A stretch of 64,000 nucleotides of DNA, taken from positions 1 to 64,000 of the forward strand of contig JALEMR010000051.1 in NCBI GenBank assembly GCA_022768245.1. Reading direction: 5' to 3'. The translations under genes and the position numbers were made by a program. The notes beneath the pieces were generated by a model. That model searched no databases. It was not told where the DNA came from and saw only the letters and a program-made list of their open reading frames with translations. Below, one piece after another: positions 53,799-60,010 of the stretch (positions are counted from its first letter, which is position 1; each line of letters starts with the position of its first letter). Source of the DNA: Oscillospiraceae bacterium (GTDB lineage: Bacteria > Bacillota > Clostridia > Oscillospirales > Ruminococcaceae).

Positions 53799-53894
53799 AT
53801 GAAGCTTATCGTTGTGAAAAGTCCGAAGCTCCTTACAAAGCTGTTCAGGATAATTTTCAAGATCAGCAAGGAGGATATGACTGCCGAAGAGTAG
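53799..53894 (+). CDS. spoVM: SpoVM-like small membrane-curvature peptide
   Basis: A 31-residue peptide with an amphipathic helix (MKLIVVKSPKLLTKLFRIIF). In Bacillus the 26-residue SpoVM recognises convex forespore membrane and anchors SpoIVA to start coat assembly. Sequence similarity (MK-x-x-x-x-K-x-PK-x-L opening, basic-hydrophobic helix) and position directly after thiN support the call. TTGGAGGT at 53787-53794 is a strong ribosome site. It is longer than the Bacillus peptide by an acidic tail (EDMTAEE). It is the last gene of the long operon and is followed by a terminator. Confidence 0.83.
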   Translation: MKLIVVKSPKLLTKLFRIIFKISKEDMTAEE

Positions 53895-53915
53895 CGCATA
53901 TCCCGCATTATGCAG

Positions 53916-53944
53916 AGCCGCAGTCATAATCCTGCGGCTTTTCT
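53916..53944 (+). terminator. Terminator of the yicC-spoVM operon
   Basis: AGCCGCAG/CTGCGGCT with an 8-base loop, then TTTCTC. Confidence 0.85.
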
Positions 53945-53957
53945 CATAATCTGTATT

Positions 53958-54330
53958 ATTGCTCCACCAATTAACTTAATGTCTGCTCAACAGCGGAAAA
54001 AGTGCGTAGAAGCTTTGCTTCGGAGCATTTTTTCCGTTGTTGGGTGCAAGGATTTTTGGCGTTTTAGCCAAAAATCCTTGCACCTTGCCGCCCGTCAGCG
54101 GCGGCAAAGCAGACATTAATCAGGTATTACGGCACAAATCTTTGATTTGTGTCGCTGAAAATCCTGTTTTACAGGATTTTCAGCCAATAACTTATGAAGA
54201 TTTATGCGCAGAACCGCTGACAAAAGACTAGGAAGAAAACCGCAGGAATATGCGATGTTTCAAGGTTTTCTGACGAAGGATCTTGGCAGCGGGGCAAGCA
54301 GAAAATTCAACAGTTAATTGGGGGAGCAAT
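53958..54330. mobile_element. Mosaic inverted-repeat element, long copy (MITE-like)
   Basis: A 373-base non-coding element bounded by near-perfect 18-bp inverted ends: ATTGCTCCACCAATTAAC at the left and GTTAATTGGGGGAGCAAT at the right. Inside, TTAATGTCTGC (53976-53986) and GCAGACATTAA (54109-54119) bound an inner block with hairpins at 53988-54042, 54044-54083 (17-bp stem) and 54085-54106. Further hairpins lie at 54132-54152, 54155-54183 (13-bp stem) and 54233-54280. The last 60 bases are closely related to the short copy at 59908-60010. No transposase gene is present. The small open frames inside it have no coding support. Confidence 0.82.
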
Positions 54331-54354
54331 AGTATACTGATTGGAGGAATATGC

Positions 54355-54639
54355 GTGAAATGCACATTTTCCGAGATAAAGGGCAAGGAGATAATATGCG
54401 TGAAAACGGGCACTAAGCTGGGCTATGCGGACGATCTGGAGTTTGATACCGACGGAATGTCTGTAAAAGCACTGCTGATATTCGGACGATGTCAGCTTTT
54501 CGGGCTTCTCGGCAGACAGGACGACATCAGAGTGGATGCAGATGATATCCAGCTTATCGGCGAGGATACCGTGCTTATCCGCGGAAATAGGTATATTTCA
54601 CCAAAGAAGGACAAAATCAGAGTGAAAAGTTTGTCATAG
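54355..54639 (+). CDS. ylmC: YlmC/YmxH family (PRC-barrel) protein
   Basis: A 94-residue PRC-barrel-like protein. FSEIKGKEIICVKTGTKLGY and DDLEFD near the start, then ALLIFGRCQLFGLLG and IGEDTVLIR, match the YlmC/YmxH group, which is tied to sporulation in Firmicutes but has no firm biochemical role. GTG 54355 behind GGAGGAA (54343-54349) is chosen; the frame upstream runs into the mobile element. The gene begins only 25 bases after the element's right end, so the element could supply or alter its promoter. Confidence 0.82.
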   Translation: MKCTFSEIKGKEIICVKTGTKLGYADDLEFDTDGMSVKALLIFGRCQLFGLLGRQDDIRVDADDIQLIGEDTVLIRGNRYISPKKDKIRVKSLS

Positions 54640-59861: not shown

Positions 59862-59909
59862 GCCGCTGTATCGGGAGGATATCCTCTTCCCGCTGCAGCG
59901 GCTTTTTTT
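59862..59909 (+). terminator. Terminator of gdhA
   Basis: GCCGCTG/CAGCGGC outer stem with an inner CGGGA/TCCCG stem, followed by seven T's that run into the short mobile element. Confidence 0.9.
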
Positions 59910-60010
59910 GCTCCCCCAAATTAAATGATGAGGATTTATGCTTGCCCCACTGACGACGGATTTCGTCAGTGGGGCAAGCATAAAATTCAATAGTTAATTG
60001 GGGGAGCAAT
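59908..60010. mobile_element. Short copy of the mosaic inverted-repeat element
   Basis: A 103-base element with ends TTGCTCCCCCAAATTAA and TTAATTGGGGGAGCAAT. The centre is a perfect 17-bp hairpin GCTTGCCCCACTGACGA/TCGTCAGTGGGGCAAGC (59940-59979). Its right half, GGGGCAAGCATAAAATTCAA and onward, matches 54291-54330 of the long copy with few changes. It sits directly after the gdhA terminator. Confidence 0.82.

Follow-up and report, generated by a model that had tools for sequence, protein, structure and literature searches.

The spoVM-ylmC interval and its empty counterpart

In the window, by which we mean the whole stretch of 64,000 nucleotides analysed, spoVM and the sporulation gene ylmC/ymxH are separated by a gene-less patch of about 370 bases, which is a nested pair of two unrelated MITEs. 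The features of the locus, and a related one downstream, are listed below.

53799-53894, + strand: spoVM, left neighbour (NF033436, 33.1 bits, cut-off 31)
53957-53958, no strand: TA, left copy of the outer element's probable target duplication (from the empty site of G003)
53959-53978, + strand: left part of the outer element, with terminal inverted repeat TTGCTCCACCAATTAACT (matches the uninterrupted copies L023, L025, L028 and L030)
53973-53978: AACTTA, target of the inner insertion, within the outer left part
53979-54192, + strand: inner element, a hairpin-array MITE with its right end missing (about 40 matching places in its own genome, the long ones 91-98% identical)
54185-54194, no strand: deletion junction, the start of hairpin 6 (CAATAACT) joined to the residual AACTTA (full copies continue; hairpin 6 and the right end, about 32 bp, are missing)
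54195-54329, + strand: right part of the outer element, with terminal inverted repeat AGTTAATTGGGGGAGCAA (94-97% identity to four uninterrupted copies)
54330-54331, no strand: TA, right copy of the outer element's probable target duplication (from the empty site of G003)
54358-54639, + strand: ylmC/ymxH, right neighbour (TIGR02888, 50.7 bits, cut-off 44.2)
59908-60009, + strand: short relative of the outer element, 102 bp, without the inner insertion (last 66 bases 88% identical, other end matched inverted)

The sister species G003 shares the spoVM-ylmC neighbourhood but lacks the composite, so that the element does not replace a usual spoVM-rpmB neighbourhood, as the preliminary description had it. 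The empty site reads CTGTATTATTATACAGATTGG and its counterpart in the window CTGTATTA-element-TAGTATACTGATTGG; both window flanks, with a single TA, have the length of the G003 site with two mismatches, and identity across the ylmC side is 93%. Since G003 has nothing of the composite at the orthologous position, the whole of it (53959-54329) is an insertion. A terminator-like hairpin 3' of spoVM (53914-53945) is kept in G003, which places this insertion between the terminator and the start of ylmC.

The right edge of the composite lies about 12 bp upstream of the Shine-Dalgarno-like GGAGG of ylmC, and the inner part has a very stable predicted fold (-131.5 kcal/mol against -56.2 +/- 4.3 in shuffles, z = -17.5), both of which would suit a regulatory RNA or attenuator fixed at this locus and acting on ylmC. 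That reading is extremely improbable given that nothing upstream of ylmC in the congener G002 matches the element, and the empty G003 site together with the many copies elsewhere rules it out. The preliminary description had tied such an RNA to a lack of further copies and a locus conserved in relatives, and the opposite was found on both counts.

Two families, one inside the other

The outer MITE is 155 bp long with inverted ends of about 20 bp (TTGCTCCnCCAATTAACT). In the window, the inverted ends first described as 18 bp extend to 23 nt (53954-53976 and 54312-54334, 91% complementary), and positions 53954-53976 and 54188-54334 recur uninterrupted at four further loci of the same genome. It thus has the terminal inverted repeats, the several copies and the empty site of a MITE. 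TA flanks all five full-size copies and is probably duplicated on insertion, judging from one empty site that would also accommodate a mismatched 6-bp duplication. Duplication of TA is known from RUP and IS630. The outer element resembles the RUP-type MITEs, which are linked to IS630-Spn1 (PMC3049150), in its probable TA duplication and in its inverted ends of about 20 bp. The partial second copy noted earlier 5.6 kb away is the relative at 59908-60009. It lies directly behind a terminator-like hairpin 3' of a glutamate dehydrogenase-like ORF, and its left end enters the T run.

The inner family was searched in the 2.41 Mb of the same genome (102 contigs), where window positions 53977-54192 match at about 40 places, many of them at contig ends. 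Full copies are 244-249 bp long (about 246) and carry no gene; beyond window position 54192 they have a sixth hairpin and then ...TTGAGTACGCACTA, reading on as CAATAACTGCCCTTCGGGCAGTTATTGAGTACGCAC where the window copy stops. Their terminal inverted repeats, of the TARTGYSTGCTCAA type at both ends, are imperfect, with about 10-11 of 14 positions matching. The inner block had been described as bounded by an 11-bp inverted repeat. Such a repeat is present, and is in fact 12 nt long and perfect (53976-53987 and 54108-54119), but it closes the first half only, and the genomic copies set the end of the block at 54192.

A single larger diverged element, rather than a nested pair, could be imagined from the window, where both parts stand together. 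Four outer copies lacking the inner block, and dozens of inner copies that stand free of outer ends, refute it, and we give it practically no probability. The preliminary view of one non-autonomous element inside another is thus borne out by two families found apart in the genome and by the composite missing in G003.

As to the order of events, the 155-bp outer MITE would have entered a TA between spoVM and ylmC, and the inner MITE of about 246 bp would then have entered AACTTA in its left arm. The window junction (CAATAACT/TATGAAG), set against the residual AACTTA, fits a later deletion between AACT repeats, by which the inner MITE would have lost its last 32 bp or so.

Target site, distribution and a candidate partner

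The inner family inserts at TAnnTA and makes duplications of 6-7 bp. Among 29 copies with both flanks available, the flanks match above shuffled pairings clearly only at a length of 6 (11 exact against 3.4, z = 3.6). Adding copies of the family from further genera, and three IS copies, to those of its own genome gives a set of 40, of which 19 show an exact duplication of 6 or 7 bp against 4.4 after shuffling; none of 20,000 shuffles reached 19. Pairs such as GAATTA/GAATTA (L115) and TACTTA/TACTTA (L125) show true duplication and not merely a preference for AT-rich sites. The duplication of the window copy is not directly visible because its right end is deleted. All 19 exact duplications fall among the 32 forms of at least 80 bp (the three IS copies included) and none among the eight shorter, single-hairpin forms of 44-50 bp, which may therefore be old or remnants. 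In one 50-bp single-hairpin form (L174, contig C353 of G002) the flanks are inverted (GATACT...AGTATC), the palindrome extending past the element.

With inverted ends, target duplication, short length, multiple copies and no transposase gene, the inner family has the characters of a MITE, and it shares shortness, lack of genes, inverted ends, target duplication and a stable fold with the bacterial MITEs described previously (PMC10969869, PMC2229807). Our search of open-licence papers returned no description of it, and it is apparently undescribed so far. Compared by description, BOX of streptococci (PMC3049150) is likewise composite, modular, strongly folding and non-autonomous with a variable number of internal modules, but it varies by the number of tandem boxB units, whereas the inner family loses distinct hairpins in a fixed order. 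High-copy hairpin arrays are also found in REPIN/BIME and GTAG-tagged palindromes (PMC3116915, PMC3733652), from which the inner family differs by its target duplications, its DDE-type ends and its lack of a RAYT link. An origin as a REPIN/BIME-like element or from IS200/IS605 (Y1 transposase) would account for the hairpin arrays, the palindromic minimal units of 49-50 bp and the GTAG beside hairpin 4 in many copies. We consider it highly unlikely in view of the 6-7-bp duplications and of ends like those of an IS with a DDE (IS5) transposase; Y1 elements are not known to make target duplications.

The family occurs in two of the four genomes of the genus, the elements of G002 being 73-75% identical. 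In the family-level sample, clear copies were found in the genera G112, G115 and G291 and a weak fragment in G094, counts that are lower bounds with two candidates scored per genome. The right end also occurs in two public assemblies, an uncultured Ruminococcus and an uncultured Clostridia MAG. Plasmid and phage collections gave no match; in scans of IMG/VR one pattern gave none, and the other gave two that look like chance matches in phage coding sequence. About 25 contig ends of the present assembly lie within the family, and in G112 (60 contigs) a substantial proportion of contig ends fall in the MITE or its IS. This system seems to limit the assembly of such genomes, and the family thus both shapes and confuses Ruminococcus-type genomes.

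For bacterial MITEs, mobilisation in trans by an IS with similar ends is assumed (PMC10969869, PMC2229807). A second set of ends (GTGTATCCTCAACAACCAGTC) occurs in G112 at sites of the same TAnnTA type and is part of an IS with an IS5-family transposase. The IS ends GTGTATCCTCAACAAC compare with the MITE end GTGTCTGCTCAACAAC of that genome, both at TAnnTA-like sites, although assembly did not yield a complete G112 IS. Similarly, the IS end ATGTCTGCTGAACAATTGAAAAAAG of G067, a more distant relative, compares with the G115 MITE ATGTCTGCTCAACAACTGAAAAAG. More distant IS ends (ATGTCTACTGAA) occur in G191 and G247, and those of the G002 IS (GTCTCTCCTCA) match the MITE ends at only 8 of 11 positions. 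The transposase of G094 scores 437 bits against NF033578 (cut-off 275) and has DUF772 and DDE_Tnp_1_2 domains; long transposases are present in G094 and G297, and the G002 one, 88% identical, is an N-terminal half cut off by the contig end. One of the three complete IS copies examined, that of G297, has an exact duplication, the 7-bp TATATTA. A 6-7-bp TAnnTA duplication is not known to be the usual length in the well-known IS5 subgroups.

A candidate for the matching transposase that the preliminary description suggested seeking was found in relatives, on an IS5-family IS with similar ends, but the gene was not found in the present assembly, from which it may have been lost or may be missing with the repeats; present mobility there is accordingly putative. 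A PF01609 search likewise returned nothing in this genome. Four PF01609 matches in G002 were rejected as the mover, having no matching ends.

The IS5-family IS (NF033578) resembles the inner MITE, which carries no transposase gene, in its ends, its target and also a hairpin at its left end. A GTGCAAG...CTTGCAC hairpin in the leader of the transposase gene abuts the Shine-Dalgarno. In six of the seven IS leaders, with one mismatch tolerated, an arm of the GTGCAAGG type is found some 66 bp in from the left end, as far in as hairpin 2 lies in the MITE. This colinearity suggests that the left part of the MITE derives from the left end of the IS. The leader hairpin is conserved in L281, L301, L302, L303, L309 and L328, where translational control is a possibility.

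The best explanation, which we hold very probable, is a pair of nested MITEs, the inner one putatively mobilised in trans by an IS5-family transposase and having a putatively IS-derived hairpin array as its interior. From the likeness of ends, target and left-end hairpin, the mover is probably an IS5-type transposase that would recognise TA|RTGYnTrCTCAA-type ends, make 6-7-bp duplications at TAnnTA and move the MITE in trans. The interior would descend from the left end of the IS and have become a hairpin array.

A predicted double cloverleaf

The inner family is predicted to fold as two tandem cloverleaves of three hairpins each. In the window copy, the hairpins (hp1 to hp5) are placed as follows.

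53976-54119, no strand: first cloverleaf, closing stem P1 (TTAATGTCTGCT / AGCAGACATTAA) around hp1-hp3 (12 bp, 100% complementary; conserved in the alignment as helix 1)
53988-54042, no strand: hp1 (between species, 7 of its 18 pairs have changed in a compensatory way)
54043-54084, no strand: hp2, perfect 18-bp stem GGTGCAAGG...CCTTGCACC (counterpart in the IS transposase gene leader)
54085-54107, no strand: hp3 (from folding; G002 arms largely different, still paired)
54130-54154, no strand: hp4 (from folding and alignment)
54154-54184, no strand: hp5, perfect 14-bp stem (from folding; G002 arms largely different, still paired)

The two perfect stems, first given as 13 and 17 bp, are one base pair longer each (18 bp, 54043-54060/54067-54084; 14 bp, 54154-54167/54171-54184). 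Of the six or more hairpins claimed, hp1-hp5 are present, but the sixth of the family is truncated here, and six are reached only by counting the outer element's own pairing.

In an alignment of four genomes, two closing stems are common to all, with three hairpins within each. Paired cells make up 97.5%, and 20 of 75 pairs have changed on both sides; compensatory cells number 86, compared with 34 for shuffled sequences (500 shuffles, all of them lower) and 0-17 when the pairing is slid. These pair counts exclude hp3 and hp5, which MAFFT misaligns between species and which were judged by folding each element singly. The same plan (hp1-hp3, linker, hp4-hp6, similar ends) is found in a 258-bp element of G191 beside a transposase 50% identical to that of G094, although its arms are almost wholly different and only hp2 retains a GTGCAAGG/CCTTGCAC core. 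This 258-bp element (L308, 1108-1380, contig C124) directly adjoins the end of a related IS, the ends nearly touching (TAGACATTACTTAATGCTCACTGAAC). Shape is thus conserved over the long term and across species. While the MITEs of PMC2229807 are single long stem-loops, or two arms in the CIR elements, the inner family has two cloverleaves of three hairpins in tandem, with arms that give way to others from species to species while the pairing is kept, and as far as we could find this shape-conserved double cloverleaf is a new variant among MITEs. Nested MITEs are a known principle, and what is unusual here is the member, a widespread hairpin-array family whose shape outlasts its sequence.

Could the double cloverleaf itself be selected, as a functional structured RNA or single-stranded DNA with mobility as its means of spread? 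The strong covariation and conserved linkers, the G191 plan with its replaced arms, the presence of hp2 both in the MITE and, immediately before the Shine-Dalgarno, in the IS leader, and the distinct substitutions of 0.41 per paired against 0.84 per unpaired site in alignable copies would all fit. Its roles might be, for example, transcript buffering or processing, titration of a regulator of the IS transposase mRNA via hp2, or an aid to transposition. On the other hand, single changes between close copies mostly break pairs (37 distinct, against 18 to G-U and 7 compensated), copies with one to five hairpins exist, and the 19 copies with two scorable neighbours, too few a number, have no clear bias in gene orientation. 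An RNA read from one strand is expected to give an excess of C>T plus A>G over G>A plus T>C, and the asymmetry observed, 26 against 18, is not significant. Rfam gave nothing above the gathering score, the best hits being eukaryotic miRNA models far below the cut-off. Given the broken pairs and the lack of a significant RNA-type asymmetry, the data demonstrate conservation of shape and not selection for it, and we regard a selected function as possible but rather doubtful. Equally doubtful, in our judgement, is its broader form, in which the double cloverleaf is under selection across distant IS5-group lineages in an element defined by shape and acting as RNA or single-stranded DNA; if true, it might for example regulate the IS transposase via the hp2 leader hairpin or be needed for transposition.

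DNA template switching can create and repair hairpin stems (PMC8794818). The persistence of the hairpins would be explained most economically by template-switch repair of palindromes together with renewed amplification of intact copies; the alternative would be that the fold is selected. Arm turnover with the pairing kept offers a natural test between compensatory change by selection and template-switch mutation (PMC8794818).

Reduced forms retain hp3-6 (L040, L046, L225), hp1 with hp4-6 (L222), hp4-6 (C37, C55), hp1 with hp6 (L065, junction at TTTCAGCCA, common to hp2 and hp5), hp1 alone (L234) or hp6 alone (49-50 bp). Since natural forms range from one to six hairpins and there is a probable partner IS, both mobility and what each hairpin contributes can be tested directly. 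Also, a 49-bp form of G002 (L154, contig C45, 11744-11792) combines an end of one type with an end of the other (TCGTGTCTGCTCAA / TTGAGCACGCACTA), which suggests that the two are used interchangeably.
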